A DNA stretch of 21,498 bases from a virus, in IMG/VR virus record IMGVR_UViG_3300046453_000090, positions 1-21,498 of that record. One strand, written 5' to 3'. The notes beneath the pieces were generated by a model that saw only the letters and a list, made by a program, of their open reading frames with translations, was not told where the DNA came from and ran no database searches. Positions 7,448-21,080 of the stretch are shown in pieces (within the stretch, counting starts at the first letter, position 1; each line of letters starts with the position of its first letter). Made by a program: the position numbers and the translations under genes.

Positions 7448-7465
7448 CGTTTTAAAAATGGGTGT

Positions 7466-7490
7466 AAAAAAACCCGCTAAATTAGCGGGT
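7466..7490 (-). terminator. First of two tandem hairpins after the fibre-like gene
   Basis: ACCCGCT (7472-7478) pairs with AGCGGGT (7484-7490), followed on the minus strand by a run of U. It starts within 3 nt of the fibre-like gene's stop codon, so it is placed as a normal 3'-end terminator. Confidence 0.75.
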
Positions 7491-7492
7491 CC

Positions 7493-8797
7493 TTATTTAA
7501 TTTCATCTGAATTGGAGACTTCTGGAGGTTCGACACCTGCCATTGCATCTGCTACAGCTTGCGCAAGGTTAGTTGGCTGAAATTCAACTGGTGTTTCACT
7601 CAGTGGTTCTTCGGGTTCTGACTCAGGCTCTTCATGTAAGCGGATATCAATCCAACGCGAGAAAGGAATATCCATAGGATTTTCCAGATCTGCAACGATT
7701 GCAGCCAGTTCAATATCAAACTTACGCTTGTAGGTTTTAATGGAAATATCGCCATTCTCTAGCGTTTCATAGACAACTGCGACAACCGTGTTGCCATTCG
7801 CATCTTTTGGCACTTCGACGTACCAGCCTTCTTGTGCAAAACCAAGTGATCCCTTAATCAGGTAATCACCAATTCCATGTTTCTCAAAAGTGATGGGCTG
7901 TTTTTCAGCATCGGAGTTTAGATCAATATAATCACTGAACAGTTTTACAACCGGAGAGGCTGCCTTAATGAATCCTGATCCATCAACCGTGGTGTTGTGT
8001 TCACCACGTAAGGCGTACCAAGGAGAATATGCGCCCTGATAACTATGTCGTCTAAAGCCAAAATAAGCAGAAGAAGTCCCGACACTGATTTGTGCAGCGT
8101 GTTCGGCTGCACTAGTAATGTTTAATCCCAAAATATATTGAGCAAAAATTCCCGGATAATCGCCTGCAGCGGATGCATTTGCTCCTGTGCTCTGTAATCC
8201 AATAAAACTACCTCGTGCATCAAGAGTTGCTAAAGGAGAATTGCTCAATGGAAAGTTAGCAGCAAAACCATTATTTATTAATCGTTGATAATCCGCCGAA
8301 CTAGCATCTACAAGACGTTTCCAAGCGGTCCATGTCGCTAAGTCAGCAGTTGAGCGATACCAGATACGACCACTTGAAGCAGAAATATAGATCTGGTTGC
8401 GGTAATTATTGGAACCAGAAACATTTAATACCAACAATGTCCCAACAACTCCCGCTTCAGGGAAATTTAAGGCTAATGTAGCGCTAGCAAATGTATCGTT
8501 ACCATAGAACCCCACTGTAGTCATGTTGTTGAGGTCTGCACCACCAACATCAATATTCCGAAGTGGCTTACCTAAACCAAAGTCACCAACTCTAAGAACG
8601 CGACCAATCGTATCATCTAAATATGATGTGGTAAGTGTGCCTGCTGCTGCTGTCCCCGCCCCCTGAACCTGTGATAGTTGTGGGTTCAAATTCGGAATTC
8701 CAGAAGCAAAAGGCAGCATAAATTGCCGCTTACCTTCAGCCGCATTATATGGGAACGGCCGATGATCCCAGCTAAACTTAAATAATAGATTTGCCAT
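7493..8797 (-). CDS. Tail fibre-like / receptor-binding protein (434 aa)
   Basis: This is probably a host-recognition or virion decoration protein. Residues about 80-165 (NIDVGGADLNNMTTVGFY ... GRIWYRSTADLATWTAWKRLVD) match the pyocin-knob style repeat seen in phage fibres and R-pyocin tails. The middle (about 165-285) is Gly/Ala/Ser-rich, as in trimeric fibres. A conserved-looking C-terminal domain (about 295-390, with GWYVEVPKDANGN, YKRKFDIELAAI, SRWIDIRLHEE) is followed by an acidic Pro/Glu tail. The ATG overlaps the previous stop as TAATG, so translation is coupled to the 120-aa gene upstream. Location between the tail terminator and tail tube is unusual; fibres normally follow the tip genes. 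An attachment function is inference from the knob-like motif. Confidence 0.75.
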   Translation of the reverse strand: MANLLFKFSWDHRPFPYNAAEGKRQFMLPFASGIPNLNPQLSQVQGAGTAAAGTLTTSYLDDTIGRVLRVGDFGLGKPLRNIDVGGADLNNMTTVGFYGNDTFASATLALNFPEAGVVGTLLVLNVSGSNNYRNQIYISASSGRIWYRSTADLATWTAWKRLVDASSADYQRLINNGFAANFPLSNSPLATLDARGSFIGLQSTGANASAAGDYPGIFAQYILGLNITSAAEHAAQISVGTSSAYFGFRRHSYQGAYSPWYALRGEHNTTVDGSGFIKAASPVVKLFSDYIDLNSDAEKQPITFEKHGIGDYLIKGSLGFAQEGWYVEVPKDANGNTVVAVVYETLENGDISIKTYKRKFDIELAAIVADLENPMDIPFSRWIDIRLHEEPESEPEEPLSETPVEFQPTNLAQAVADAMAGVEPPEVSNSDEIK

Positions 8798-9147
8798 TAT
8801 GCAGTCACTCCATCAATCACCTGGAATGTCAAAGTTTCAGTGTGCTGTGTTGTCCCGCTTACCACTGCTTTAATATCCATTTGAACCAAACCTAGAGGCC
8901 ACGCAGTCGTGCTTGCACCAGATTTCACACTTAACCACCCCTTCTGAGTACTCTGACTTAAAGGGGCACAGGTCAAGGTAGCTACTGCAGTACCTTCTGC
9001 AGTTTTAACTTGAGATGTAAATGTATAACCTGTCAGATCAATTGCACGGCGCACATCATCGGCAGGAAATTGCAGAGTTTCATCCATATCGACGAGCTGC
9101 AAATTCAAGTTGAAGGTGTCACCACGCTTAAAAACAAAATTGCTCAT
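8797..9147 (-). CDS. BppU-N-like fibre or baseplate accessory protein (116 aa)
   Basis: From the ATG at 9147 the protein begins MSNFVFKRGDTFNLNLQL. A start at 9204 would translate the upstream hairpin region, and the CAGGA ribosome site 7 nt before 9147 decides the start. The pattern of RGDTF, IDLTGYTFTSQVKTAEG, a WPLGLVQMDIK strand and a final TLTFQVIDGVTA resembles the small beta-sandwich domain at the N-terminus of BppU-type baseplate or fibre-anchor proteins. It is coupled (TAATG) to the fibre-like gene. An adaptor that attaches or accompanies that protein is a reasonable inference. The family match is from pattern recognition and is not certain. Confidence 0.65.
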   Translation of the reverse strand: MSNFVFKRGDTFNLNLQLVDMDETLQFPADDVRRAIDLTGYTFTSQVKTAEGTAVATLTCAPLSQSTQKGWLSVKSGASTTAWPLGLVQMDIKAVVSGTTQHTETLTFQVIDGVTA

Positions 9148-9162
9148 AAGTGATTCCTGTAA

Positions 9163-9188
9163 AAATAAAAAACCACCGATGAGGTGGT
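9163..9188 (-). terminator. Hairpin just upstream of the fibre cassette
   Basis: ACCACC (9172-9177) pairs with GGTGGT (9183-9188) around a 5-nt loop, followed on the minus strand by TTTTTTATTTTT. It ends about 15 nt before the ribosome site of the gene at 9147. Confidence 0.7.
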
Positions 9189-9202
9189 AGTGATTAAAAT
9201 GC

Positions 9203-9222
9203 AAAAACCGCCCTAAGGCGGT
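9203..9222 (-). terminator. Hairpin after the zinc-ribbon gene
   Basis: ACCGCC (9207-9212) pairs with GGCGGT (9217-9222) around a four-base loop, followed on the minus strand by five U. With the hairpin at 9163-9188 it forms a tandem pair in front of the fibre cassette. Confidence 0.7.
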
Positions 9223-9239
9223 ATGATCCTGTTGTTTAA

Positions 9240-9449
9240 TTAGATCTGATTCTTTCTGTACTCTTCTTTGCGTGCTTCAATTTCTTTATTGGTGAATTTT
9301 TTTCCACAAGTAGAACATTTCCATAGATGATCACCTTTAAAACTATGGCAAACAGTTTCTACTTGCTCATGGTGGCAATTCACATCCTCTTCTTCGTCAT
9401 ACAAAGCAAAAGGTTCATAACCTGATATCTCTGGCTTCCCATTACTCAT
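9240..9449 (-). CDS. Small zinc-ribbon protein (69 aa)
   Basis: The function is unknown. Cysteines C25, C34, C45 and C48, with histidines near C25 (CHHEQ) and the knuckle CSTCGKKF, form a probable zinc ribbon. The N-terminus is acidic (YDEEEDV) and the C-terminus basic and helical. The ATG is preceded by AGGTGG at a good distance. The gene lies between the tail terminator gene and the fibre cassette and ends just before tandem hairpins. Small zinc ribbons in phages may bind nucleic acid or host proteins; nothing here decides between these. Confidence 0.8.
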   Translation of the reverse strand: MSNGKPEISGYEPFALYDEEEDVNCHHEQVETVCHSFKGDHLWKCSTCGKKFTNKEIEARKEEYRKNQI

Positions 9450-9472
9450 TCTGCCACCTCGCCTTCTAATCG

Positions 9473-9649
9473 CTAATCATTAATTGGTGGCAAATCTTGC
9501 CATTTAATAACTTTTTCACCATCGTCTACTTTGAAAAACCCACCATTGTAGTAACTGATATCAACAATTTCATAATGAGGCCCTTCTACAACGACGAGAT
9601 ACCGCCCTGCGCTTACGGGCCTCTCTTCTTTTAATATTTTCCACATCAT
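9473..9649 (-). CDS. DUF551-like small protein (58 aa)
   Basis: Reading the minus strand from ATG ATG at 9649 gives MMWKILKEERPVSAGRYLVV, then a short beta-rich segment and the end KWQDLPPIND before TAG. The GRYLVVVEG...ISYYNGGFF...W..LP pattern resembles DUF551, a short domain common in phages with no known function. The start lies just after the stop of the tail terminator gene (TGATATG), consistent with translational coupling. The upstream ribosome site is weak (GGTGA). Confidence 0.72.
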   Translation of the reverse strand: MMWKILKEERPVSAGRYLVVVEGPHYEIVDISYYNGGFFKVDDGEKVIKWQDLPPIND

Positions 9650-9650
9650 A

Positions 9651-10049
9651 TCAATTCACCGTATATCCAATAAAGACATTATACTTAACAAAGTCAGCAT
9701 CTTTACCCGCATCAATCGATTCGCCCTTCAAACATTCTAAATTCTCAAATGAGAAATACTCAAAATGTGCCAGCAAAGCATCACTTAGAACTGTTAGGGC
9801 TTTCTCTCCAGTATGAAGTCGGTCAAAGCATTGAATCATGATATTACCTGTGCGACGAGTACATGGTTTATCAGCAACACCTGAAGTAAAGCTTGAACCG
9901 CCAGCAATTTTTAATCGACACCATAAACCTTCCTTCGGCACAGTAAAGCCTGGTGCATTTGGAAACTGAATTCTGTCCTGGGCAATGCCTGTAAAGTTTT
10001 CCATACGATCGATGATAGCTAGCCTTGTCTGCTCTAATGTCATTGCCAT
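9651..10049 (-). CDS. Tail terminator protein (DUF4128-like, 132 aa)
   Basis: The protein should cap the tail tube and form the interface with the neck, like lambda gpU. From the ATG at 10049 it begins MAMTLEQTRLAIIDRMENFTG, then has FPNAPGFTVPKEGLWCRLKI and a beta-rich body with RTGNIMIQCFDR, ending FIGYTVN. Length and pattern fit the DUF4128/tail-terminator family. Longer in-frame starts to 10127 only translate the neighbour's coding region. The ATG lies two bases after the stop of the gp10-like gene, with GGTGG upstream. The second ATG at 10043 is an alternative. Its position after the gp10-like gene is the standard neck order. Confidence 0.82.
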   Translation of the reverse strand: MAMTLEQTRLAIIDRMENFTGIAQDRIQFPNAPGFTVPKEGLWCRLKIAGGSSFTSGVADKPCTRRTGNIMIQCFDRLHTGEKALTVLSDALLAHFEYFSFENLECLKGESIDAGKDADFVKYNVFIGYTVN

Positions 10050-10050
10050 C

Positions 10051-10419
10051 TTAACCACCGTACTTTTGAGAAATATAAGTAAACGTTGTACTGTAAATAC
10101 CCTGCGGTGCTTGGTCTGACCAACCATTCTCTAAGCGTTCAGCATATGACTGGTTGTTCTGAATATAGACCAAATTGCCCAGCTTAAACTTAACGGCTTG
10201 AATAGCTGCATCTTGCACGGCGTTTGCTTCAGGTCCACGAACACCAAATTCCTCAGATCCAATCGATACAATATGAGAGGATCGATAAGCACCAGTATCA
10301 ACGGGACTTGAAACTACAAGCGATTGCATCGTATCCATAATCATTTTCTTAACATCGTCTTCAGCTTTTTTTTCTACTTCAAAACTAAAGCTAGTCGGCT
10401 TTTTCCCCGTCCACCCCAT
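10051..10419 (-). CDS. HK97 gp10-like neck/tail completion protein (122 aa)
   Basis: From the ATG at 10419 the protein begins MGWTGKKPTSFSFEVEKKAE. It has an N-terminal helix (VEKKAEDDVKKMIMDTMQSL), then SPVDTGAYRSSHIVSIG, and ends YAERLENGWSDQAPQGIYS. The motif SPVDTGAYRSS and the YAERLENGWS segment are hallmarks of the HK97 gp10/Phage_HK97_TLTM group that joins head and tail. A GAGG ribosome site lies 9 nt upstream. The gene overlaps the end of the HEAVH gene (stop at 10391) by 29 nt, and the extended start at 10515 lies inside that gene. Confidence 0.85.
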   Translation of the reverse strand: MGWTGKKPTSFSFEVEKKAEDDVKKMIMDTMQSLVVSSPVDTGAYRSSHIVSIGSEEFGVRGPEANAVQDAAIQAVKFKLGNLVYIQNNQSYAERLENGWSDQAPQGIYSTTFTYISQKYGG

Positions 10420-10799
10420 GACTTTCAACCTCGCTTGCTTCATACATTTCAAATAGGTCTTGTGCGATTGACTGAATTGAATACGCTTCAAACTCAACAC
10501 TTGGCTCGCGCTCACCCATTCTTCGTTTTACTATTTGCCAGACATGAACAGCCTCGTGTAAAAGCAGTCCATAAACTTGTAATTGGTCCTTACCCCCCCT
10601 TATCACCAATTTGGACAATTGCATAAGCGCCATCAGAAAAGGAACTAACTTGAGCATCTGCCCCCATATCTAAAAATTGATCAGCTTTATCCATGTCCTC
10701 GAATAACAGATTCATGTGTAGCTGATTTCTGGCGAGTGTATATTTGACATGTTGAAACGGTGAGGTGTACCACTCAGGCACATAATCGGTATTAACCAT
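10391..10799 (-). pseudogene. HEAVH-motif putative metallopeptidase split by a G7 frameshift (135 aa if restored)
   Basis: Two frames together make one protein. Frame 1 starts at the ATG 10799 (MVNTDYVPEWYTSPFQHV, AAAAGGA upstream; ATG 10805 is an alternative) and ends at TAA 10592-10590 immediately after AAG GGG GGG. Dropping one G from the G7 run (10599-10593) gives IGDKGGKDQLQVYGLLL and continues to 10391. The second part has HEAVHVWQ (residues 81-85 of the restored protein) followed by GEREPSVEFEAYSIQ with possible third ligands E102 and E104, a gluzincin-like arrangement. Neither half is a sensible gene alone: the second has no proper start and the first lacks the catalytic motif. Causes could be a true lesion, phase variation, +1 frameshifting at GGG-TAA, or a homopolymer sequencing error. 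It sits among neck genes; function unknown. Confidence 0.8.
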
Positions 10800-10809
10800 G
10801 GCCATCCTT

Positions 10810-10980
10810 TTAGCTTGGTAAGAGTGTTTCAGTAGCCTCTCTACCATCAAATGAATTATGAACAAAAACGCCATCCTCAATTTTGGGATGGCATTCACAA
10901 TGAAAAAATGAGTGTGGTTTTAAATCATCTATAGGAACTACCTGAACACTTTCATGAAATGTATACACAACCCAAGACAT
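10810..10980 (-). CDS. Small conserved phage protein with HCECHP motif (56 aa)
   Basis: From the ATG at 10980 the protein reads MSWVVYTFHESVQVVPIDDL and contains HCECHP and VHNSFDGREATE. I recognise the general pattern (VPxxDLxxH, CxCxP, VHxSFDGRE) as a small protein that is widespread in phages, with no known function. The Cys/His cluster at residues 27-31 could bind metal. A longer ORF from 11070 only repeats the coding region of the stopper gene. The ATG overlaps that gene's stop as TAATG, and GAGGAG lies 6 nt upstream, so the pair is translationally coupled. Confidence 0.78.
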   Translation of the reverse strand: MSWVVYTFHESVQVVPIDDLKPHSFFHCECHPKIEDGVFVHNSFDGREATETLLPS

Positions 10981-11348
10981 TACACTCTCCTCAACTGACA
11001 TTTCCAAATAGTAGCTCCTGGGTCTTGTTGAATGTGTTTGACACGAAATATACCTAAAGGAGTAACCCACTCATCTTCCATTATGGGCACCATGGTCACT
11101 TCATTTTGCAGCACGGTCGCCTTTTTATCTGTAGCCAGTACTCCAAGCGTTTGTATTTCATATTGACTGTATGAGCCGAATAGAACACCACGACCAGTAT
11201 AGTTTTCTTTAACTTCAACATGAGTTTCTGTCTTAGGATCCCAATTCGTTTTAGAAATCCGCTCACAGGTAAAGGTATGCACGGCGTCCGCTAAATCTTC
11301 ATTTAATGCTTCAGCAATTTCTGCCTGAATTTCGTCACGTAAGCCCAT
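10980..11348 (-). CDS. Head-tail stopper/joining protein (122 aa)
   Basis: Order (adaptor, stopper, gp10-like, tail terminator) and a beta-barrel-like sequence support this. It begins MGLRDEIQAEIAEALNEDLA and later has YTGRGVLFGSYSQYEIQ and PLGIFRVKHIQQDPGATIWKCQLRRV. Neck stopper proteins of this group close the portal channel after packaging. An AGGA ribosome site lies 7 nt upstream, and the ATG overlaps the adaptor gene's stop as TAATG. No single invariant motif proves the family; position carries much of the weight. Confidence 0.72.
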   Translation of the reverse strand: MGLRDEIQAEIAEALNEDLADAVHTFTCERISKTNWDPKTETHVEVKENYTGRGVLFGSYSQYEIQTLGVLATDKKATVLQNEVTMVPIMEDEWVTPLGIFRVKHIQQDPGATIWKCQLRRV

Positions 11349-11728
11349 TAGATTTTCCTGACAAAAAATACTCGTTTGCTTTTGCGATATGGTTTGATCA
11401 AATCAAGAATAAACTGCTCAGTTGCCGTTAGTTTTACCGATCCGTCTTGATATTCTTTTTCCGTCTCAACCGTATCGGCCTTTACCTTCTTGCGCTTTAA
11501 TGCCTGTTCCTGACCTTGGTATAACTCCCCTTTCATAATGCCTTTAATGATCTGATAAGAGGCAGTTTTGAGGGGTTGAGGTACTGTAGCGACATCTACA
11601 TAAGGCTTAACATTACGTGCTAATAGATAAGCCTCAGACATCTGTAGATAATCAGCCTTATCACTGTCAGATAAAGCATCAAAGCCTACTACATGTTCAA
11701 TCGCTTCTTGTTCAGTGATAAAGCTCAT
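11348..11728 (-). CDS. Head-tail adaptor protein (gp6/DnaT-like, 126 aa)
   Basis: The protein is alpha-helical, begins MSFITEQEAIEHVVGFDALSD, and continues KADYLQMSEAYLLARNVKPY with a basic C-terminus (KPYRKSKRVFFVRKI). The arrangement of early helices with AxxLxxR followed by an internal GELYQGQ matches the head-tail connector group often auto-annotated as DnaT-like. It should bind the portal and extend the neck. AAGGA lies 8 nt before the ATG. It sits between the HeH-domain protein and the stopper. Confidence 0.75.
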   Translation of the reverse strand: MSFITEQEAIEHVVGFDALSDSDKADYLQMSEAYLLARNVKPYVDVATVPQPLKTASYQIIKGIMKGELYQGQEQALKRKKVKADTVETEKEYQDGSVKLTATEQFILDLIKPYRKSKRVFFVRKI

Positions 11729-11731
11729 GGG

Positions 11732-12106
11732 TTATTCCTTTGGAAGAAGTGCTAACAACTCATCTTTTTTAGCACCTGATTCAAATGCAATGCCCTTTTC
11801 GGTTAATACAGCACGAAGCTCATCAACTTTAAGTCCAGCATAGTTAATTGGTTGTACCTGGTCATCTCCAGCGTGTTGGCTGCCTTCAGAGTTTTGATTG
11901 CTTTGAGCTTGCTGATTGTCACCATCTGGTGTTTGTTTTCCTTCTCCCAATTCAAGCTCGGCAATACGTGCTTTCATTGCTTCAGGATCATTCTGAAAAG
12001 CAATAAATTCATCTTTCAGGGTTGCAAGTTGCTCTTCCAGCTCAGTAATTCTGTCTTGTGTCATTTGTTGTCTTTCCCGTGCACGGTTAAATGATGAAAG
12101 TCCCAT
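11732..12106 (-). CDS. Head protein with coiled coil and C-terminal HeH/SAP-like domain (124 aa)
   Basis: Residues 13-53 form a predicted coiled coil (RQQMTQDRITELEEQLATLK). A Gln/Asn/Gly-rich linker (about 55-85) follows. Residues about 90-124 (LKVDELRAVLTEKGIAFESG then AKKDELLALL) match a HeH/LEM or SAP-like helix-extension-helix domain, typically a nucleic-acid or protein contact module. GGAG lies 8 nt before the ATG. The gene lies just after the major capsid gene, where small head-completion or decoration proteins usually are. The exact role is unknown. Confidence 0.72.
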   Translation of the reverse strand: MGLSSFNRARERQQMTQDRITELEEQLATLKDEFIAFQNDPEAMKARIAELELGEGKQTPDGDNQQAQSNQNSEGSQHAGDDQVQPINYAGLKVDELRAVLTEKGIAFESGAKKDELLALLPKE

Positions 12107-12121
12107 TTGTTAGTCTCCAAA

Positions 12122-12143
12122 AGAAAAGGCGGATAAATCCGCC
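12122..12143 (-). terminator. Hairpin after the major capsid gene
   Basis: GGCGGAT (12128-12134) and ATCCGCC (12137-12143) form a 6-7 bp stem with a tight loop, followed on the minus strand by TTTTCTT. It would stop part of the transcripts after the capsid gene, favouring capsid over neck proteins. Confidence 0.65.
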
Positions 12144-12150
12144 CATGTCT

Positions 12151-13101
12151 TTATTTAATTTTGTGCTTAAAAGCCACAATACGAATTTGTTTTGGATCGT
12201 AAACACGTTCCCAATTATCGCCACTTGCAAGACCAGAGTTCTTCGGCGCAATACCATTCGCACCAGCCCATTTAATACCACGTGGATGTAGTACAAAGTG
12301 ACGGCGGTTAATCAAGATATCTACACCAGCAAGACTATCGCGATCAGTTTCAACCGCATTTGGTGCACCAATATCTTGGAAGCCAACAGCACCTTGACCA
12401 AATAGGAAAGAAGTAAATACATCACCATCAACGGGCATGCCATCATCAACAATCACACGGCGATCCATAAAGGTTTTATAGAGTAAAACCCCATCAGCAT
12501 CACGCACGGTTTCAATTAAACCCTGCTTAGATAAAGCTGACATAGTGAATGAATGCATTGAAATCGCCGTTAATTTATCGACCGCATCGCCAAGCTTATA
12601 TGACGCATCGACAAAAGAATGACCATCAATAACCGCTGCGGCCCCTACGCCAGCTGAAATATCATGTACGTTACTTGCCATACTTGCAGCACCAAAAACA
12701 CCTTTGAGGGTATTCACGGTAAAGCCCTGAAACTCACGCGCCCAATAATCTGCTACCAGATCACCAACCGCACCGAGTGGATCGTCACCAGATAAGGCTT
12801 TTGCTAGATCATTAGCACCCCATGCCTTACCACGGGCATGGAGAATTGCAATATCTTGACCTGATGTAATGTTATTTACAGTTAAAGGGGTTTGATCAGA
12901 GAGAACTTCCGATTCACCACTTAAATCGTTCCAAAAAGGAATATTTACAGTAGTACCACCCTTCGTTCCAAAAGCTACATCTTCTTCAAGATCCCCCACA
13001 ATGCCAGACTGCCATAAGGCAGATTTCTCAGCGGTTTTATTTAAAACATATGGAGTGAATAATTCAGGAACGATTACATCAGCAATTTTGGTATCAGCCA
13101 T
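12151..13101 (-). CDS. Major capsid protein (gp13-like, HK97 fold, 316 aa)
   Basis: The protein forms the icosahedral shell. The N-terminus MADTKIADVIVPELFTPYVL and segments such as FGTKGGTTVNIPFWNDL, ARGKAWGANDLAKALSG and DPLGAVGDLVADYWAREF match the gp13-like capsid family, as does the late GAVGFQDIGAPNAVETDRD region. The 316-residue length is normal. There is no N-terminal delta domain, and a separate scaffold gene precedes it, as expected for this family. AAGGAG lies 9 nt before the ATG, the strongest ribosome site in the window, consistent with high expression. Confidence 0.92.
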   Translation of the reverse strand: MADTKIADVIVPELFTPYVLNKTAEKSALWQSGIVGDLEEDVAFGTKGGTTVNIPFWNDLSGESEVLSDQTPLTVNNITSGQDIAILHARGKAWGANDLAKALSGDDPLGAVGDLVADYWAREFQGFTVNTLKGVFGAASMASNVHDISAGVGAAAVIDGHSFVDASYKLGDAVDKLTAISMHSFTMSALSKQGLIETVRDADGVLLYKTFMDRRVIVDDGMPVDGDVFTSFLFGQGAVGFQDIGAPNAVETDRDSLAGVDILINRRHFVLHPRGIKWAGANGIAPKNSGLASGDNWERVYDPKQIRIVAFKHKIK

Positions 13102-13114
13102 TTGGCTTTACTCC

Positions 13115-13906
13115 TTAAAGTTTAATATTGTGTTTTGCTGCCAGCTCTTTAGCTAACTGCGGATTTTCATTTCGTAATTGCGCCAATTTGGTTAAGTTCA
13201 CTGAACCATCTGGTTTGAGAATGTCGACCTGACCTTTTGTATTGGCACTACCTGGTGCCCCCATACCATTTGGTTTAGGCCAGTAGTACGGTTTTAGCTC
13301 CCGTAGAGATTCAACCCATTCTTTTGGGGTCTGCGGTGTCTGACCGTCTTTACCAATGACCACTTCACCGTTTTCATCTACAGCTACCGCTTTGCCGTTT
13401 TCATCTAATGCAAACTTGGATTTAGCTAAAAAAGCGATGTCACCTGTTGCTTCAGCTAATGCTTCAAGCTCTACAGCCGCTTGAACGATTTGCCCTTGAA
13501 TTACTGACTCCTTAAACTTATTTGCATAAGCTTCGGCTTTGTCAGCACGGTCTTTTTCGGCTTTAAGTACCTTTTCATGTTCTTCACGCATCTTCTCGGT
13601 GCGTTTCTGAATCACTTCGGTAATTTTGCCTTCAGCGATTAACTTTGCTTCTTCATCTTGATCAAGTTGAGCAAAGACTCTTTTGACAATTTCAGGGTCA
13701 ATTCCTTCGAACTGATTTTGAAGTTCCTGAAGTTTTCGTTTTGCATCCTTAGCGGCATCACGCTCACTTTGAAGTGCAGATTTCAAACCTTTAGGATCTT
13801 CATAGCCGTCTAAGTCAAGGCGAAACTTCCCGTTTTCCTCAACATACAAAGCGCGGTGCTCTTCTTTGATTGCATCAAGTGAATCAACAATAAATGGTAA
13901 TGGCAT
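13115..13906 (-). CDS. Capsid scaffold protein (263 aa)
   Basis: The protein is highly charged and helical and lies directly upstream of the capsid gene, the standard scaffold position. Residues about 38-135 (RDAAKDAKRKLQELQNQF through REEHEKVLKAEKDRADKAEAY) form a long coiled coil. The C-terminal part has WVESLRELKPYYWPKPNGMG and a small basic helical end (AKELAAKHNIKL) likely to contact capsid. The ATG at 13906 has GAGAGG 7 nt upstream; a TTG at 13912 is in frame but less likely. A hairpin separates it from the Acb2/Tad1-like gene. Confidence 0.88.
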   Translation of the reverse strand: MPLPFIVDSLDAIKEEHRALYVEENGKFRLDLDGYEDPKGLKSALQSERDAAKDAKRKLQELQNQFEGIDPEIVKRVFAQLDQDEEAKLIAEGKITEVIQKRTEKMREEHEKVLKAEKDRADKAEAYANKFKESVIQGQIVQAAVELEALAEATGDIAFLAKSKFALDENGKAVAVDENGEVVIGKDGQTPQTPKEWVESLRELKPYYWPKPNGMGAPGSANTKGQVDILKPDGSVNLTKLAQLRNENPQLAKELAAKHNIKL

Positions 13907-13952
13907 GTTCAAACCTCTCGTTTGATTTGGATAAAGCCTTATCTCAAGGCAT

Positions 13953-13976
13953 TAAAAAAGCGCCCTTAAGGACGCT
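13953..13976 (-). terminator. Hairpin terminator after the Acb2/Tad1-like gene
   Basis: AGCG-C-CCTT (13959-13967) pairs with AAGG-A-CGCT (13968-13976); the central CCTTAAGG is palindromic. The minus strand continues with TTTTTTAAT. A smaller inverted repeat, GCCTT/AAGGC at 13936-13950, follows it. Confidence 0.65.
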
Positions 13977-14004
13977 GTATTTAGATAAATAAGTAATACG
14001 TAAT

Positions 14005-14625
14005 TTAAATTTGGTTTAAACCTTCCACGCCTCGTTTCTGGCGATCTCGTGTACGATGTTCTAACCACATTTGGCCTTGCTCAATGTTCGTAATTGCAAG
14101 TGAATTTTCACGGCATGGAAACTCTTGATTCAATATTCGCAAGCGATGTAAAACTATTGCGAGTAATGCTTCATTCGTTATGCCATTTACTCCAACTTCT
14201 TTAACTGGACCTAGTTGAAATTGAATAGGTGTGAGTAAACCACCAGAAATCACATCGTAAAAATGTCCAGCTTTTAATGGCTGTTCACCATCCCGTGTTT
14301 TAACTGTTTCGTTATGGATAACTGTTACACCATTATCATCTTTATGAATTTCTCGGCCCAATACACAATTTTGAAAACCGTCTAGCTGATATGATTTTTC
14401 AAAAACATCTTTTGGTGACCACGAAATATATCCTTCATGATCTGGATGATTAGCCTTGCCGCCATCTTTGTATTCAATTAAATAACCCGGATCACCTGGG
14501 TCTTCGTTTTCTGGAATTTGCCATCCTTGGTATTCATTATATTCACCACGTGACATAGGTATTGCTAGAACTGATTTGGTGCCGATGTATGCAACCATCG
14601 AAAGTGCTAATAGTTTCTTAGACAT
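14005..14625 (-). CDS. Acb2/Tad1 hairpin-domain protein, probable anti-CBASS/anti-Thoeris sponge (206 aa)
   Basis: Residues about 10-85 (YIGTKSVLAIPMSRGEYNEY, GW, GYLIEYKDGG, GYISWSPKDVFEKSY) match an N-terminal domain that in other phages I recall being fused to Tad2/DUF2829. The C-terminal part (about 130-202) reads GPVKEVGVNGITNEALLAI, then CRENSLAITNIEQGQMWLEH, RTRDRQKRGVEG, the Acb2/Tad1 hairpin signature. N174, R191 and R195 have the spacing of ligand-binding N/R/R residues as I remember for Tad1. Known for the family: these proteins sequester cyclic di- and trinucleotides or gcADPR, blocking CBASS and Thoeris signalling. The gene is bracketed by hairpins among head genes. A GTGAG site is 7 nt before the chosen ATG; M10 is an alternative start without a ribosome site. 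The signal-peptide look of the first residues is probably accidental. Confidence 0.75.
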   Translation of the reverse strand: MSKKLLALSMVAYIGTKSVLAIPMSRGEYNEYQGWQIPENEDPGDPGYLIEYKDGGKANHPDHEGYISWSPKDVFEKSYQLDGFQNCVLGREIHKDDNGVTVIHNETVKTRDGEQPLKAGHFYDVISGGLLTPIQFQLGPVKEVGVNGITNEALLAIVLHRLRILNQEFPCRENSLAITNIEQGQMWLEHRTRDRQKRGVEGLNQI

Positions 14626-14635
14626 TTTTTACTCA

Positions 14636-14658
14636 CAAAAAAAGCACCCGAAGGTGCT
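14636..14658 (-). terminator. Hairpin terminator upstream of the Acb2/Tad1-like gene
   Basis: AGCACC (14643-14648) pairs with GGTGCT (14653-14658) around a four-base loop, followed on the minus strand by seven U. It lies about 11 nt before the start codon of the downstream gene, so it may also mask or expose that gene's ribosome site. Confidence 0.75.
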
Positions 14659-14704
14659 ATGGTTAAAATCAGTTATTTTCTGGGCATGTTTCAAGACCAG
14701 AGGA

Positions 14705-14977
14705 TTAAGTAAACTTACTATTTTTTACTGAAAATTCAGCTCTAGCTTTATGCCATGCTCCTTCAGAAATCACACCTGTTATAAATCCGAGCTCTAACCC
14801 ATCACCAATATATTGTCTAAATTGACTAGTAGTTAAATTAAACTTAATTGCCACTTCTTTGGCAATTAATGGGGCATGTTCTAGAAGTACATTCCATTCA
14901 TCTTGAGTAAGCTTTTCTTTTCCACGCAAAAATAACTCCATTGACTGTGCAAGTATTTCATTATTTATATCACTCAT
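14705..14977 (-). CDS. Hypothetical protein (90 aa)
   Basis: I do not recognise it. It is mostly helical, acidic at the N-terminus (MSDINNEILAQSMELFL), with EHAPLIAKEVAIKFNLTTSQ and FRQYIGDGLELGFITGVISE, which could be a helix-turn-helix-like arrangement, and ends in a basic tail. There is no clear ribosome site at the ATG (only AAG). It follows the 47-aa gene after a 78-nt gap with an inverted repeat and precedes the Acb2/Tad1-like gene, so it could belong to the same accessory cassette. Function unknown. Confidence 0.72.
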   Translation of the reverse strand: MSDINNEILAQSMELFLRGKEKLTQDEWNVLLEHAPLIAKEVAIKFNLTTSQFRQYIGDGLELGFITGVISEGAWHKARAEFSVKNSKFT

Positions 14978-15005
14978 ACGTACTTAGCCATTTTCTAAAA
15001 TTTTA

Positions 15006-15029
15006 TGGTTCTATATTAGCCGAACCATT
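15006..15029. repeat. Inverted repeat ATGGTTC-N10-GAACCAT
   Basis: Two 7-bp arms in exact inverted orientation flank an AT-rich 10-nt centre (minus strand GGCTAATATA). It lies in the 78-nt gap upstream of the gene at 14977. No U-tract follows directly, so it looks more like an operator-style site or an mRNA hairpin than a terminator. The central TAATAT could be part of a -10 element; no convincing -35 is visible. Confidence 0.4.
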
Positions 15030-15055
15030 ACATAATGCTACTGTTTAAAAAGACT

Positions 15056-15199
15056 TCAAATATGGCAGCAGGCTTTAGGGTATTTAAAGTTTAATCCGAA
15101 GAGAGCCATATATCTTGGAATCAACTTCCGAACAAATGGCACCAAAATAATATTAGTGCTTAGGATATATTGCGCTTGAGTCATAGTTACTTGTTTCAT
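15056..15199 (-). CDS. Hypothetical small protein (47 aa)
   Basis: Reading from the ATG at 15199 gives MKQVTMTQAQYILSTNIILV, PFVRKLIPRYMALFG and an end with two adjacent cysteines (ACCHI). The start overlaps the stop of the minor head protein gene as ATGA, and AAGGA lies 9 nt upstream, which together make it a credible coupled gene despite its size. Moderately hydrophobic and basic; I do not recognise it. It could be a membrane-associated peptide or a small capsid accessory. Confidence 0.6.
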   Translation of the reverse strand: MKQVTMTQAQYILSTNIILVPFVRKLIPRYMALFGLNFKYPKACCHI

Positions 15200-16302
15200 A
15201 ATCCAATGTCCTTAAATGTCTGCTCATCCAACTTTCGAAGTTGGTCCAGTGTGTAAAGCCGCCCTTTAGGATCAAAGAATTTATCAAAATCAAACTTTCC
15301 TTCTTTATAAAGTTTGTACCGCTTTGGCCCTAGCCATTCATTCTGGAAGAAATCATCTGTTTTCTTAAAGAACTCTTTGAATGTGGTGTTTGCGTCCAAT
15401 TGGCCGATGAGTTGGCTACGCTCGTCTTTTGGGATGTCTTTAACTTTTCGCTCATCCATTACAAACGGTCTTTCTCCCACAAGGAGACCATCCTTATCTA
15501 CAGCAACCAGAATACTGCGGCAGTTTCGATGTAATGGTGGTACTCGTTTTGCCGGATCATCAATTCTCCAGACAGTGCCATCTAATGACGCGCAAAGCTT
15601 TGTTGTTCTTCCATCCAATACACTGACAAAGCGGACATATTCAAAACCTAGCTGCTTGAAGGTGTCTAAATACGTTTGATTTGCTACATGGTTACGTAAC
15701 GTTCTTACAGTCTGATCAATGTCTGACTTAGTGCTAGTTAAAAGCCCATCTTCATAATTGAGGCGCTTGGTACCACGAATACGTTGGACAATTTCCTGAT
15801 TCGTTTTACCGGAGTTAATCCCATCCCGAATTGCATATTCAACTTTTTGGCGCGTTGTTTCGGCAATCTTGGCAAGTAGATCCTCTACCAATGCCCCGCC
15901 CACTAAGGGTGCTTTTTTAGCAGCTGAATAAAGTTTTTCGCCAATCGGCTTTTTAATCTTACCGCCGTACAGCTTTGCTGTGTAATTAGCCTCATATACC
16001 GCTAATGCTGTGGCTGAAACTGCGAATGCTTGAGGCAATGAAGTATTTATTGCCGTAAACCACTGAGAAATTAAATCCCGAATCTCTTTGAGGTTTGTCG
16101 TTGTGTACTGACCACCCGCAAGAGCAAGCTTTTCAGAATCACTTAACTCATCTAACAAGTCTCTAAGCTTTGCCAGCATTAATGCCGACTCATCATTAAA
16201 GATTGTTAATAATTCATTAACTGATTGAGAAGATGCTCGATATAAATACGCCTGGTGTTGTGTAAGTACTTCAATCAATGATTTTTCAATATTAGAAGCC
16301 AT
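15196..16302 (-). CDS. Minor head protein, Mu gpF-like (368 aa)
   Basis: The protein is a portal-associated minor head component involved in head assembly. The C-terminal half contains the Phage_Mu_F domain (about residues 165-268): FVSVLDGRTTKLCASLDG, then VPPLHRNCRSILVAV, with C237, H258 and C261 as the conserved Cys/His residues. The N-terminal half is helical, with ALVEDLLAKIAETTRQKVEY before the domain. Length is typical. AGAGG lies about 8 nt before the ATG. The gene follows the portal gene directly, as in SPP1/Mu-like arrangements. C-terminal RLYTLDQLRKLDEQTFKDIG is a small extra helical region. Confidence 0.9.
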   Translation of the reverse strand: MASNIEKSLIEVLTQHQAYLYRASSQSVNELLTIFNDESALMLAKLRDLLDELSDSEKLALAGGQYTTTNLKEIRDLISQWFTAINTSLPQAFAVSATALAVYEANYTAKLYGGKIKKPIGEKLYSAAKKAPLVGGALVEDLLAKIAETTRQKVEYAIRDGINSGKTNQEIVQRIRGTKRLNYEDGLLTSTKSDIDQTVRTLRNHVANQTYLDTFKQLGFEYVRFVSVLDGRTTKLCASLDGTVWRIDDPAKRVPPLHRNCRSILVAVDKDGLLVGERPFVMDERKVKDIPKDERSQLIGQLDANTTFKEFFKKTDDFFQNEWLGPKRYKLYKEGKFDFDKFFDPKGRLYTLDQLRKLDEQTFKDIGL

Positions 16303-16311
16303 TTAACACCT

Positions 16312-17661
16312 CTAAATCGGAGAGCTATCCCGCTCAGCTTCAACCCTCTTCAACTCTTCCTGATAATCATGACCAGGTAATTTTCCTGTAGCGATATATT
16401 CCCAATACGTCTGGAATGAGTTCTTTCCAGAAATTGCACCTTCATAAAGCTGCTTAGCCATATTGATATCGTATTGCTGGACAATAAACTCAGGCTCTAC
16501 CGTAAATACATTTTTGGAAGGATCTAGCTTTAACCACTGAGCTGCATATTTAATGGACTGCTCAATAGCAGCAGCTGCACACATCACAATACTGTGTAGG
16601 CTTGCTTGTTGATCATCCTGACGTGCACGGCGTGCTTCACCTGATTCTTGTGTATTCGTATCAACAACCTTTGCACCGGCTTCTAATGCTGCGTTCTTTT
16701 GTGCATCCATTTCACTCTTGGTAAGTTCGATACCATTACCTGAAATTTCTAAATAACCGCATTGTGAGTCCTTAGGCAGACTCCAGACAGCCATCACACC
16801 AGTAACACTAATATCGTCATCGTCCTCATCCCCTTCTAAACCATTAATCCAAGGCTGAGGATGTGCTGTATGATGAAGTGACTGAAAGTAATCCGCACTA
16901 AGCTGGTAACTCTTTAGAGCTGCTTTCGCCATAGTTAATAGCGGAATAGTTCCAACATTAGGAGAATTATCCGTGGTACCACAGAATACAAATGGTGTGA
17001 ATGAAAGCTGATTACCGCCAAGATCCGGAGTTTTATCTTCTTCACTAGAGCCATCAAACAAACGGACAGTTAAAGCACCTTCCTGCATAGCTAAAACACG
17101 GTGGACCGTTTTCGTGTCATGTCCGAATTCATCTTCACTATTATCAAACTGCTCCTCGAGCACCAATAGCTTCAGATCCTTACGACCACCAATACTGTTT
17201 TCCTTCCAGTTGATGATAGATAACGCATCGTATAGAGCAAAATATGGAACGCCTTTAGAATCGACATCGACCAATAAACCACAGCGGCCATACTCCAAAA
17301 GCTCTAAGCAAATTCGAATAAAGAGTTGTTTAAGGCCAAAACCATCATTAGTTGCGTTTTCAATCAAGCCCTTTAAAAGAGAACTTTCAATTACAATGTT
17401 TGGCTCAAGCTTAGAGACCAGACCAATCATCGTGCGAAGAGAGTCTTGAACCCAGAGGGGATATTGAGCGCGGCTTAAATAGGCTTTATAAATCTCTCCA
17501 GTCTTATCCCCCTGCTTTTCTGCCTCAATCATTCCAGCCGATTTAGCAAGATACTTGGTTTGTTCCTGTTTGATCTGCTCTTCGCCAGCAACGGCGTCAC
17601 GCATAATCTGCCAGCTTTTTTGTGCAGCAATATACTGCGGATGTTTATCAGTAACTGCCAT
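16312..17661 (-). CDS. Portal protein (DUF4055-type, 449 aa)
   Basis: The dodecameric portal is the DNA gateway and terminase docking site. From the ATG at 17661 the protein begins MAVTDKHPQYIAAQKSWQIM. Segments AYLSRAQYPLWVQDSLRTMI, LELLEYGRCGLLVDV, YALYDALSIINW-type strands and the late ESGEARRARQDDQQASLHSI match DUF4055 portals. A longer start at 17697 would translate the terminator-like hairpin in the leader, so I reject it. GGTG lies 5 nt before the ATG. The length is slightly shorter than SPP1 portals but normal for this family. It lies between large terminase and the Mu gpF-like gene. Confidence 0.9.
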   Translation of the reverse strand: MAVTDKHPQYIAAQKSWQIMRDAVAGEEQIKQEQTKYLAKSAGMIEAEKQGDKTGEIYKAYLSRAQYPLWVQDSLRTMIGLVSKLEPNIVIESSLLKGLIENATNDGFGLKQLFIRICLELLEYGRCGLLVDVDSKGVPYFALYDALSIINWKENSIGGRKDLKLLVLEEQFDNSEDEFGHDTKTVHRVLAMQEGALTVRLFDGSSEEDKTPDLGGNQLSFTPFVFCGTTDNSPNVGTIPLLTMAKAALKSYQLSADYFQSLHHTAHPQPWINGLEGDEDDDDISVTGVMAVWSLPKDSQCGYLEISGNGIELTKSEMDAQKNAALEAGAKVVDTNTQESGEARRARQDDQQASLHSIVMCAAAAIEQSIKYAAQWLKLDPSKNVFTVEPEFIVQQYDINMAKQLYEGAISGKNSFQTYWEYIATGKLPGHDYQEELKRVEAERDSSPI

Positions 17662-17672
17662 AAATACACCAA

Positions 17673-17697
17673 TAAAAAAGCACCTAAATAGGTGCAT
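17673..17697 (-). terminator. Hairpin between large terminase and portal
   Basis: GCACCT (17680-17685) pairs with AGGTGC (17690-17695) around AAAT, followed on the minus strand by TTTTTTATT. It starts 4 nt after the terminase stop codon. Confidence 0.75.
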
Positions 17698-17700
17698 TGT

Positions 17701-18993
17701 TTAACGAGAAAAACCAGCGATAGTTCGCCGTTTAAATACTTTCTGAATAATGATTGGAAAGCGCTTAGCTAATGGATACCCGCCAGCATCACCCACATGG
17801 TCCAAACCAGCACCTTTATCAGGCATTCCAAAAGCATCATAGACTTGCTGCTCTAGTGTTGCCGTAAAGTTAGGACATTTGTTTGTGTTCACTTTTAAAT
17901 GCCGTTCACCATCTGCATTTAGGATCTGAGCATTCACAGCATTGATACGGTCTTTTATGCCTGGGTTCACACCATTCACTTCAACTTTAAAACCGTTTTT
18001 CTTTAAGATTGCATGATCAGATTCACTAAAACCCTTCGATGATGTAGCTTGACCTGAGGCATCGGGTATCACCGTAATATCATGGCCAGGGAAGCGCTCT
18101 TTGATCAAATAACAAATAGTTGGTGTATCTCGCACACCAACTAATTCATCCAAGGCTCTTGGCTTACCATTTCTTATTACATAAACCACAGCTGCCATTT
18201 TCAAAACGTTAAAGTCCATACCAATAAGTAAGGATTCTCCTTGGTTAATTTCCTCATCTGTATGATTCAAGATCCGATCAAAATCAGGATAAACAGCACC
18301 ACTAGTTAAGTTGACAAACTTACCATCCAAATAAGCAGAAATCAGTTGAGGTGGATATGACTCAAATAAAGAAGAAATATAATCGTCCGGAAGATTGGCT
18401 TCATTGTCATAAGTTGAAGCTTGAATCATTCCATAGAGCTTACTCTTAGCCTCTGATTTATTTGCCTCTTTAACAAATTGCTCATATGTAAATTTAAAGC
18501 CTTCTGGCGTGGTGGCCACATCAATACCATTGACCAATCCAGCTTGCTTATAACGCATACGTGCAATGATCTTACGCCATGCTTGCTGGGCCTTAAGCTT
18601 AGCCATGACATCAAGTTCATCAATCAAGGCATGACCAATTTTAAAACCAACAATTGAGTCCGGAATATCCATCGACCGACAAATAATAGTGGTCCGATAC
18701 TGCCGACCATAATAAATATCGACTTCCTTGTTCGATTGATAAACTTTTGTCTTTAACCCCCAATCAAATGCAACCTCATCAATTGTTGGATAAAAGATAT
18801 CCCGTATTTGTGCATATGTAGGTGCAAAATATCCTAAAGGTACTTTTGGAAACTCCCATGACTTATTACAAAGGCTTGAGCTACCCACCCAAGTTTTCCC
18901 AGAACCAAACCCCGCGACAAAAGCCCGGAATTTATTTTCCATCTGTAAAAAATTAGCCTGAGGCACATTCAGCGTCGGATTGATGTTCGGCAT
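17701..18993 (-). CDS. Terminase large subunit (430 aa)
   Basis: This is the ATP-driven packaging motor with a nuclease that cuts the concatemer. From the ATG at 18993 (MPNINPTLNVPQANFLQMEN) the Walker A is AGFGSGKTW with K33, and Walker B is HALIDELD with D125 and E126. The coupling motif region is IDVATTPEG. The RNase-H-like nuclease begins with LLIGMDFN (D259), then VIPDASG (D310) and a final DHVGDAGGYPLAKRF carrying a third acidic residue. An ATG at 19008 (MRVKK) is in frame, but its ribosome site is no better and either start overlaps the small-subunit gene. Length is normal for this family. Confidence 0.95.
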   Translation of the reverse strand: MPNINPTLNVPQANFLQMENKFRAFVAGFGSGKTWVGSSSLCNKSWEFPKVPLGYFAPTYAQIRDIFYPTIDEVAFDWGLKTKVYQSNKEVDIYYGRQYRTTIICRSMDIPDSIVGFKIGHALIDELDVMAKLKAQQAWRKIIARMRYKQAGLVNGIDVATTPEGFKFTYEQFVKEANKSEAKSKLYGMIQASTYDNEANLPDDYISSLFESYPPQLISAYLDGKFVNLTSGAVYPDFDRILNHTDEEINQGESLLIGMDFNVLKMAAVVYVIRNGKPRALDELVGVRDTPTICYLIKERFPGHDITVIPDASGQATSSKGFSESDHAILKKNGFKVEVNGVNPGIKDRINAVNAQILNADGERHLKVNTNKCPNFTATLEQQVYDAFGMPDKGAGLDHVGDAGGYPLAKRFPIIIQKVFKRRTIAGFSR

Positions 18994-19468
18994 CTTTTTT
19001 ACTCGCATCTACAACTTGAATGGTTACTTTGACTGGTGTTGGGTCATCTTCCCCTTCGCCTTCCCTCATCTTCTCAATTTCAAGATGTTTCAACTCAACA
19101 TTTAAAAGCATCAAGTCATGGCCCTGCATTTCTTCCCGAACTTGCTTGATAACGCCCTGCTTCATCAGCCTATTGTTTTTATAACCTTCATAGATCTTCT
19201 GAAGTTCATTCAATCGATAGGCTTTGTTTGCTAGAGGGATGTCATAAACGTTCTTTTGGAAATCTGCCCTGGTCTTATTAAACAAAGTAATAAGTTTCTT
19301 ACTTAAGTTTTTTCCTGTTGGCTTTGTTGGATCATATGCAGCTACTTGTTGCCTTAGAATTTCAACTCCAAATTCTTGTTTTACAGCATCAGCTACTTGT
19401 TGAGGGGTGTCAAAGCAAGCAAGAGACTGAACTATAAAGATTTTTATAGGCTCCTTTAGTGTTGCCAT
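18953..19468 (-). CDS. Terminase small subunit (DUF2280-like, 171 aa)
   Basis: The small subunit recognises phage DNA and brings the large subunit to it. The N-terminus (FIVQSLACFDTPQQVADAVK, FGVEILRQQVAAYDPTKPTG, LITLFNKTRADF) matches DUF2280, with a helix-turn-helix in about residues 15-45. The middle is helical and mediates oligomerisation in relatives. The C-terminal tail is acidic (EGEGEDDPTPVK, DAEHQSDAE). AAGGGG lies 5 nt before the ATG. The gene overlaps the start of the large subunit by 41 nt. Confidence 0.92.
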   Translation of the reverse strand: MATLKEPIKIFIVQSLACFDTPQQVADAVKQEFGVEILRQQVAAYDPTKPTGKNLSKKLITLFNKTRADFQKNVYDIPLANKAYRLNELQKIYEGYKNNRLMKQGVIKQVREEMQGHDLMLLNVELKHLEIEKMREGEGEDDPTPVKVTIQVVDASKKDAEHQSDAECASG

Positions 19469-19506
19469 AACTACCCCTTCGTAAAACTACGTAAAACAAA
19501 CAGTGC

Positions 19507-19530
19507 AAAAAAAAGAGCCCTTAGGCTCAA
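19507..19530 (-). terminator. Hairpin overlapping the metallopeptidase stop codon
   Basis: GAGCC (19515-19519) pairs with GGCTC (19524-19528) around a four-base loop, followed on the minus strand by eight U. The right arm contains part of the stop codon of the upstream gene. Confidence 0.7.
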
Positions 19531-20168
19531 TTGATTGCGCAGTTTCCGCAGCATTTTGAAATATCTAAATTTGAAACAAACGGCGGGTTATTCGCAGCTT
19601 CAATAAGTCGCTTAACGTTCTTACTTACTCCCCACCGTTTGGTTACACCAATAAATTCTTCGACATCATGACCAGCCAAATAATGTTTAGGTAATCCCGT
19701 AGTGGTGCTAATCAACATGTCACCATCTTCGTCGCGCTCAACACCTATATGGTAAAGCTCATGCTCAAGCAAATAGCAAAACTCTGTATCGTTTGCTCGT
19801 TCACAGAAAGAAGCATCAACTGTAATTAAATAACTTGGTACTGAGCCGAACCAGTCTCGCATTTGTTGCTCTTGTCGAGCTTTGCGCCAACCACCGACAT
19901 TAAACATTACCTTTTCACACTGACCAAGAACCATGGCCTGTTTGCTCTTATAAGCACATGATGCCCAAGCAAATGCCAAGAATTCCTCATTATCATCGAG
20001 TAACTCAGCAATGTGGTCATGATCTGGATTGTGTAAAGGTCCACCAATCGTTAAATAATTTGCAATAACCCATTTCTTCAGGTCTGGTGCTGGTATTAAG
20101 CGAATTGCTTTTTCCTCTTCAGCGTCATCAATAAAGTCCGCTGGCGGGAAGGGTCTGATCTGTTCCAT
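19527..20168 (-). CDS. Putative phage metallopeptidase (PF18894-like, 213 aa)
   Basis: A zinc-peptidase signature HELYH is at residues 136-140 (FCYLLEHELYHIG), with a probable third ligand in LAGHDVEEF (H167, E170 or E171). This matches the putative phage metallopeptidase family, whose substrate is unknown. The N-terminal FPPADFIDDAEEEKAIRLIP and the zinc-region VGGWRKARQEQQMRDWFG fit the same family. The C-terminus has a CCGNC cluster (C206, C207, C210), perhaps a metal site. The gene overlaps the nuclease gene upstream by 41 nt and precedes the small terminase. Protein processing during head assembly is one possible role; host-protein cleavage is another. Neither is shown. Confidence 0.82.
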   Translation of the reverse strand: MEQIRPFPPADFIDDAEEEKAIRLIPAPDLKKWVIANYLTIGGPLHNPDHDHIAELLDDNEEFLAFAWASCAYKSKQAMVLGQCEKVMFNVGGWRKARQEQQMRDWFGSVPSYLITVDASFCERANDTEFCYLLEHELYHIGVERDEDGDMLISTTTGLPKHYLAGHDVEEFIGVTKRWGVSKNVKRLIEAANNPPFVSNLDISKCCGNCAIN

Positions 20169-20604
20169 TGAAAATTTGCCTCTTCAAATTTTTCAGCCAT
20201 TCGCTGGCAAAGCTTGCTTGAATTTGTAGCGGCCCTAATTCATTAATCTTAAATCTTGCTGCCGACTCTAAGCGAACTACGGTATAGCCCATCTCTTCAG
20301 CCACATCGTAACGATCAAGACTCCACGCCTTTGTTGCAAGCTTTCCTCGTCGACCTCCCGACCAAGGACCACCCGCAATTTCAACTAATATACGATGTTC
20401 AATTAAATGAAAATCAAAACGCCAATGCTTTGTGGATTTAAACTGGAATTTCTTCTCATATTTGATTTCCAGCACATCTAAAGCATGAGTAAATTCCTCT
20501 TCTGCCTCTAAATATTTTTGGGTTGCCTTAGGCAATGGTCTGCTTTTAGGTTTGGTTTTAGGTTCTTTTTTTCTGGTTAGCCAAAAATAATCTTTACTGT
20601 CCAC
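20128..20604 (-). CDS. PD-(D/E)XK-like endonuclease (158 aa)
   Basis: The core reads WRFDFHLIEHRILVEIAGGP, then LDRYDVAEEMGYTVVRLESA. D64 and E75 would be the catalytic acids, with D97/R98 in the DxxR helix and a terminal VVRL strand, as in DUF559/VSR-like nucleases. The ExK lysine is replaced (EIAG), normal for that group. A Lys/Pro-rich N-terminal tail precedes a helix. The start is GTG at 20604 with AAAGGG 7 nt upstream; no ATG is suitable. It is located two genes before terminase, where many cos or headful phages carry an HNH nuclease that assists packaging; a nuclease with the same job but a different fold is a reasonable inference. Confidence 0.72.
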   Translation of the reverse strand: MDSKDYFWLTRKKEPKTKPKSRPLPKATQKYLEAEEEFTHALDVLEIKYEKKFQFKSTKHWRFDFHLIEHRILVEIAGGPWSGGRRGKLATKAWSLDRYDVAEEMGYTVVRLESAARFKINELGPLQIQASFASEWLKNLKRQIFNGTDQTLPASGLY

Positions 20605-20615
20605 ACCTAAGCCCT

Positions 20616-21018: not shown

Positions 21019-21080
21019 ATTGACCACCTTTTAAATTGTGAAAAAGAAATATCACCCAGAAGGTGGTAGATACATGTAAT

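Follow-up and report, generated by a model that had tools for sequence, protein, structure and literature searches.

The minus-strand open reading frame at positions 14005 to 14625 of the window (the whole stretch of 21,498 bases of a virus record analyzed here) starts with ATG and encodes P0001, a fusion protein of 206 aa that is probably a two-module phage immune-signal blocker, in which a Tad1 sponge is joined to an exchangeable N-terminal counter-defense module. The C-terminal part of P0001 is a Tad1 domain. The N-terminal module (N-domain) is not a satellite of Tad2; it was found together with Tad1, Tad2, Acb2, Acb4, RyR, crAss001_48 and WDGH domains, referred to below as payloads. The two-domain architecture proposed in the initial annotation held up in sequence, profile and predicted-fold tests. 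A protein 100% identical to P0001 is encoded in a 63-kb IMG/VR contig (L001). The closest genome-borne N-domains recovered by a scan of GTDB genomes were in genomes named Acinetobacter, which, judging from these relatives, is apparently the host of the prophage carrying P0001. One of the four Acinetobacter genomes with relatives had a match to ThsB_TIR (PF08937), a marginal one (21.7 bits against a cutoff of 21.2).

The Tad1 domain (minus strand, 14011 to 14328) is delimited by phrog_2428, which spans residues 100 to 205 with an E value of 4e-37, and its assignment draws on Pfam, PHROG, phmmer, Foldseek and VIA. Compared by phmmer with PDB sequences, P0001 matched the solved CmTad1 (E 3.9e-17) and CbTad1 (E 3.5e-8), and the matches up to an E value of 10 comprised seven sequences, namely, six Tad1 (one of them, 7uav, deposited as an “ABC transporter ATPase”) and gp184 of 8y6v. 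The Pfam model PF24729 scored 25.9 bits (E 1.1e-5), just below its cutoff of 27, a shortfall that says little, since the stand-alone Tad1-like relative L051:5449-5829 also reached only 24.5 bits. The protein had been labeled Acb2/Tad1 type; the Tad1 half of that label stands by sequence, fold and conserved residues, while Acb2 was dropped, as no Acb2 chain was found among the PDB sequences matching up to an E value of 10. The Tad2 family (PF11195) was absent from P0001 in the Pfam search at E values up to 10. As a separate observation, a 299-aa protein (L052:3367-4263) combines a C-terminal Tad1 match with a different, unrecognized N-terminal region.

The C-terminal motif that had been read from the letters is present as CRENSLAITNIEQGQMWLEHRTRDRQKRGVEG, an exact match to the pattern given, together with the residues N174 (codon at 14104 to 14106), R191 (14053 to 14055) and R195 (14041 to 14043), all on the minus strand. 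In the phmmer alignment, these three correspond to residues 93, 110 and 114 of the 7uav chain. Over 23 aligned relatives, R191 and R195 were invariant and N174 was conserved in at least 90%; the three would be ligand contacts within the Tad1 pocket. No paper giving the CbTad1 residues N92/R109/R113 turned up in a search of open-license papers. The helical hairpin expected of this family was recovered in the predicted structure at residues 151 to 198 (minus strand, 14032 to 14175), as two long helices at residues 151 to 168 and 172 to 198. The CmTad1 and CbTad1 chains ranked at the top of the Foldseek search with the P0001 model (CmTad1, E 3.7e-4 and probability 1.00), and VIA superposed 68 residues on CbTad1 with a Z score of 8.7, a root mean square deviation of 1.9 and 35% identity. 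The Tad1 protomer has an N-terminal antiparallel beta-sheet, and its assembly is a hexamer of dimers. In our model, residues 83 to 147, including this beta part, mostly have a pLDDT below 50, and phrog_2428 covers residues 100 to 205.

The N-domain occupies approximately residues 10 to 80 (minus strand, 14386 to 14598) and is phrog_872-like. Modeled alone, it folds as strand-helix-strand-strand-helix with a pLDDT of 94. In the alignment, several aromatic and polar residues of the domain vary little or not at all, and the protein sequence is conserved over loci of Proteobacteria, Bacteroidota and Firmicutes. Pfam assigned no family to this part of P0001, nor any N-domain family among 148 N-domain proteins, and NCBIfam gave two single-member matches (E 0.009 and 0.04) on 80 members. 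The best PDB sequence match had an E value of 0.2. Because no significant solved structural relative was found (Foldseek best E 0.76), any ligand named for the N-domain is a guess. Two candidate identities were not adopted. The top 18 VIA rows were chromodomains, but with Z scores of at most 3.6 (47 residues, root mean square deviation 2.8) and the Foldseek value just given; and a hidden Tad2 was not supported, with an hhalign probability of 0.4% and a Foldseek E value of 3.4 for SPO1 Tad2. Among predicted viral proteins, Foldseek matched the N-domain to a Tad2-domain protein (E 1.8e-7), a RyR-domain protein (E 1.4e-3) and a “NodB-like” protein (E 2.3e-3). The initial annotation had compared this part of the protein with a domain that other phages fuse to Tad2, and the resemblance was confirmed in the relatives that we fetched.

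Relatives were collected through five IMG/VR scans (one of them seeded with Acb2), one GTDB genome scan and phage records, and their loci were labeled L001 onward. The IMG/VR queries were close to P0001 or were N-domain profiles headed by chosen members, and each scan contributed up to 80 loci; the relatives confirmed in the three N-domain scans numbered at least 577, 446 and at least 90. With the full-length P0001 query, 31 of 58 IMG/VR loci carried the complete N-domain–Tad1 fusion in one ORF. Among the relatives listed there were 226 distinct N-domain ORFs, a set that includes close relatives and in which Tad1 is inflated by that full-length query. At least one of Tad1, Tad2, Acb2 and Acb4 was present in 170, and crAss001_48 was the sole recognized payload in 32; 16 were N-domain alone (that of L032 is probably a broken fusion), 1 had WDGH, 2 had RyR (Pfam) and 5 fell in none of these classes. 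The most divergent scan yielded, among the matches listed, 45 further distinct ORFs: Tad2 in 16, Acb4 in 4, RyR in 2, N-domain alone in 10, crAss001_48 alone in 9 (one in reversed order) and with extra sequence in 1 more, and unrecognized extensions in 3. Stand-alone N-domain ORFs are 57 to 108 aa long. In N-domain ORFs of at least 100 aa, a payload of six families (Tad1, Tad2, Acb2, Acb4, crAss001_48 and WDGH) was found in 165 of 171, versus 29 of 1,491 other ORFs of the same N-domain-query loci. The payload calls in the 226- and 45-ORF sets, in the set of 163 proteins used below and in this enrichment were made with profiles built from the same loci, and RyR lay outside the profiles used for the 226-ORF, 163-protein and enrichment counts. 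An independent Pfam check covered 148 of 176 nonredundant N-domain proteins (all but 28 of the 91 N-domain–Tad2 rows) and gave Tad2-like in 69, PF13876 in 31, crAss001_48 in 29, PF24729 in 5, WDGH in 1 and RyR in 1.

The arrangement of the fusions is also variable, since in the 226-ORF set the N-domain may be N-terminal, internal or C-terminal. Stenotrophomonas phage Philippe encodes a triple fusion of Acb4, N-domain and crAss001_48; Rhizobium phage RHph_X2_28B has the reversed order, Acb4 followed by the N-domain; and N-domain–RyR fusions are encoded by Yersinia phage TG1 and Pectobacterium phage A38. Fusion to Acb2 was found once (L130, 51.1 bits). Comparison by hhalign of the profiles of Tad1, Tad2, Acb2, Acb4, crAss001_48 and the N-domain revealed no convincing relation and gave no support to crAss001_48 being Acb2 (0.5%). 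Searches of PDB sequences gave no match for crAss001_48, and only chance-level phmmer matches for an N-domain–Acb4 protein (E 1.1) and an N-domain–WDGH protein (E 0.7). Some partners are unrecognized: L068:577-999 has an N-domain followed by a C-terminal region of about 65 residues with no Pfam match, a candidate payload; two Lachnospiraceae loci (L204:2171-2683 and L207:2147-2671) have a shortened N-domain placed C-terminal to an unrecognized region of about 110 residues; and the unrecognized partners in L195 and L385 are truncated where the contig stops.

The placement of the gene inside the head operon, as originally described, was confirmed by Pfam and PHROG, which gave the order TerL, portal, Mu-F-like head morphogenesis, a 90-aa ORF, P0001, scaffold and major head protein. 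All the following features lie on the minus strand. Comparison of loci places P0001 in a variable slot bordered upstream by the Mu-F-like gene (15196 to 16302) and downstream by the scaffold gene (phrog_206, 13115 to 13912), with the major head protein (PF20036, phrog_247) at 12151 to 13101. The 90-aa ORF of the slot (14705 to 14977), standing alone amid the head genes, shows weak similarity to a tape-measure segment (PF20155, 25.2 bits against a cutoff of 41). Other slot proteins belong to phrog_31105 (L016:4425-4925 and L034:4172-4936); that of L034, which PF13876 matches very weakly (E 0.13), is perhaps a divergent Acb4. Of the 31 loci with full fusions (L001 to L031), 29 have a Mu-F-like gene upstream and 25 a similar scaffold gene downstream. 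The exceptions comprise short contigs and L025 to L029, where neither a similar scaffold nor a similar major head protein was found.

The hairpins said to bracket the gene both exist on the minus strand (14658 to 14643 and 13976 to 13959). With their U-runs, the leader hairpin covers 14633 to 14658, directly 5′ of a ribosome-binding-like GTGAG (14636 to 14632) and the ATG, and the terminator-like one downstream of the gene covers 13949 to 13976. Bracketing alone is not special, since terminator-like sites are common in the window (33 found over positions 1500 to 21400 versus a mean of 14.3 in shuffles), and we discarded it as a signature. In an alignment of 12 loci, the leader hairpin and U-run are kept before Tad1- and Tad2-bearing versions with changed stem sequences; TTTTTTGTGAG is invariant in all 12 leaders, with both payloads, and the stem sequence of L155 differs. 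The leader hairpin is a possible attenuator.

Exchange of payloads behind the same N-domain is visible at the DNA level. The N-domain–Tad2 genes of L095, L034 and L155 (the last in an Acinetobacter genome) follow a Mu-F-like gene whose product is 83, 49 and 54% identical, respectively, and where Tad2-bearing loci resemble the window in DNA, the similarity spans the leader and the N-domain and ends at the domain border. In seven pairs of loci with different payloads, DNA similarity is lost at nucleotides 212 to 243 of the gene (approximately codons 70 to 81), whereas in the eighth pair (L034 and L045), with Tad2 in both, it continues. Flanking DNA also matches in three of the seven differing pairs (L016/L095, L016/L034 and L040/L044), the remaining four matching in the N-domain only; between L040 (crAss001_48) and L044 (WDGH), similarity is back just 3′ of the stop codon. 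N-domains that are as much as 94% identical can bear different payloads. At least 56 changes of payload were required on a quick tree of 170 N-domain rows (167 labeled), with no shuffle control; since the domain is short, with about 70 residues, this number is soft.

Counter-immunity genes also occur next to the fusions. For 33 of 163 distinct N-domain proteins, the fetched stretch contains a further gene of a payload family, most within about 1 kb. An Acb4 gene lies near an N-domain–Tad2 gene in 16 loci and an Acb2 gene in L034; L051 has N-domain–Acb4 beside Tad1, and in L199 and L201 N-domain–crAss001_48 is flanked by Tad1 upstream and Tad2 downstream. Pfam backs the neighbors L034:5542-5862 as Acb2 (52.8 bits) and L095:3040-3360 as Acb4 (31.5 bits). 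In these two loci, they make up a small counter-immunity cluster amid the head genes, adjoining the N-domain–Tad2 gene that follows the Mu-F-like gene.

The available texts describe the recognized payloads as neutralizers of immune signals. Tad1, Tad2 and Acb2 are established sponges (PMC12043709). PF13876 is the Acb4 family, in which binding of 3′,3′-cGAMP was observed for SPO1 Acb4 and for the eight homologs that were assayed, and some Acb4 homologs bear additional extensions left unexplained by Chang et al. (PMC11722364). RyR proteins of phages break down 2′ and 3′ cADPR or sequester them, the founding member, RyDEP, being an enzyme that cleaves cADPR signals (PMC13232231, preprint). The N-domain is thus joined to five families published as signal neutralizers. 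The module itself is not described in the available portions of PMC12043709, PMC11722364, PMC12657218, PMC13232231 and PMC11312562, and our search of open-license papers found no title or abstract describing it.

By homology to known Tad1 proteins, the Tad1 domain of P0001 would form oligomers with gcADPR as ligand, cyclic di- and trinucleotides probably being bound as well, and the Thoeris and CBASS effectors would be starved of signal. The N-domain, with its predicted autonomous fold, its occurrence alone and its varied payloads, is probably a separate, exchangeable toolkit unit of about 70 residues. We consider it most likely that its target is one that these pathways share, be it an immune signal of nucleotide type or an immune protein of the host, and binding to it might widen the action of the sponge or anchor it. 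Fusion is an association, so a role as stabilizer or tether could also explain it. As to timing, a preprint reports the major head protein as the trigger of Thoeris in Staphylococcus aureus (PMC11312562), so a sponge expressed from the head operon would be expected to appear together with its trigger.

Several other explanations of the N-domain have to be weighed. It could be merely a tag that helps small sponge domains to oligomerize, stay soluble or remain stable, with no target of its own, and the number of small sponge-type domains that it accompanies and the many payloads that it tolerates are what such a tag would show. We nevertheless consider this unlikely, given the N-domains encoded on their own (16 of the 226 ORFs, that of L032 probably derived from a fusion, and 10 of the 45 further ones, among the matches listed), the freedom of placement at the N terminus, inside or at the C terminus, and the aromatic and polar positions that hardly vary. 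More doubtful still is a conserved anchor acting mainly as DNA, with little protein function, through which homologous exchange swaps the payloads. The loss of homology near the domain border in seven of eight pairs, the four of seven in which nothing else in the fetched loci matches and the resumption just after the stop codon in L040/L044 are in its favor, yet a local DNA anchor would not need a protein sequence conserved across three bacterial phyla, and we regard this explanation as highly improbable.

Virion packaging, with the N-domain as the signal by which the sponge is loaded into the capsid, injected and made protective from the first minute, seems rather improbable, standing between the tag and the DNA anchor in our estimate. 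The P0001 gene lies between head genes, the gene of N4 gp49 (N-domain–Tad2) adjoins that of the virion RNA polymerase, and Aeromonas phage JELG-KS1 encodes a lone N-domain annotated as “putative decoration protein”; however, N-domain genes are also found near ssb, lysis, chaperone and dUTPase genes. Two Tad1-type proteins, orf71 of Lactococcus phage 1706 (annotated as “structural protein”) and gp280 of 201phi2-1 (annotated as “identified using mass spectrometry”), would also fit packaging, but a profile search found no N-domain in either. Their Tad1 profile scores were 95.8 bits (L441:3893-4246) and 63.9 bits (L442:1129-1728), respectively; gp280 is noted as similar to phiKZ gp184, and PDB 8y6v contains a chain named gp184. 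Tad1-type domains may be virion associated in some phages.

Returning to the N-domain as a counter-defense module, the broader proposal is that it is a general counter-immunity module, common to several known families of signal blockers, with its own ligand or host target, a constant chassis for interchangeable payloads, and that its partners crAss001_48, WDGH and others are unrecognized immune-signal blockers; to this we give about an even chance. A comparable design is that of polymorphic toxins, in which a constant head carries swapped toxic tips. If the N-domain is a constant antisignaling module, crAss001_48 and WDGH, the two of the seven payload families with no known function, are predicted to be signal blockers and become testable as anti-immune proteins. 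Each family of phage sponges has so far been described on its own, their folds being different, and the recurrence of the N-domain with five experimentally shown families ties them together, its fusion partners offering a cheap route to new ones. It also raises a concrete question, namely, what the N-domain itself binds.

Among known systems, P0001 shares the hairpin fold with Tad1 (CbTad1, 7UAV/8SMD; CmTad1, 8KBB; and SBSphiJ7 Tad1), as well as the signatures QxGPxKExGVNG and CREN...R...R...VEG, and is 52% identical to SBSphiJ7 Tad1 over residues 128 to 205. Unlike P0001, the solved Tad1 chains matched have 123 to 138 aa, too short for a Tad1 part plus an N-domain. The hairpins of Acb2 and Tad1 are covered by the single Pfam model PF24729, although the profiles of the two built here gave no convincing alignment (hhalign probability of 4.7%). 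N-domain–Tad2 proteins, such as Escherichia phage N4 gp49, have the same N-terminal module as P0001 and in related phages the same position after the Mu-F-like gene, but their payload, Tad2 (PF11195), is unrelated to the Tad1 of P0001 (hhalign, 0.3%). Acb4 sponges (PF13876) are fused to the module of P0001 or encoded beside it and differ in payload family. Finally, phage RyR-domain proteins share this module in the TG1 and A38 fusions, whereas RyDEP differs in being an enzyme.
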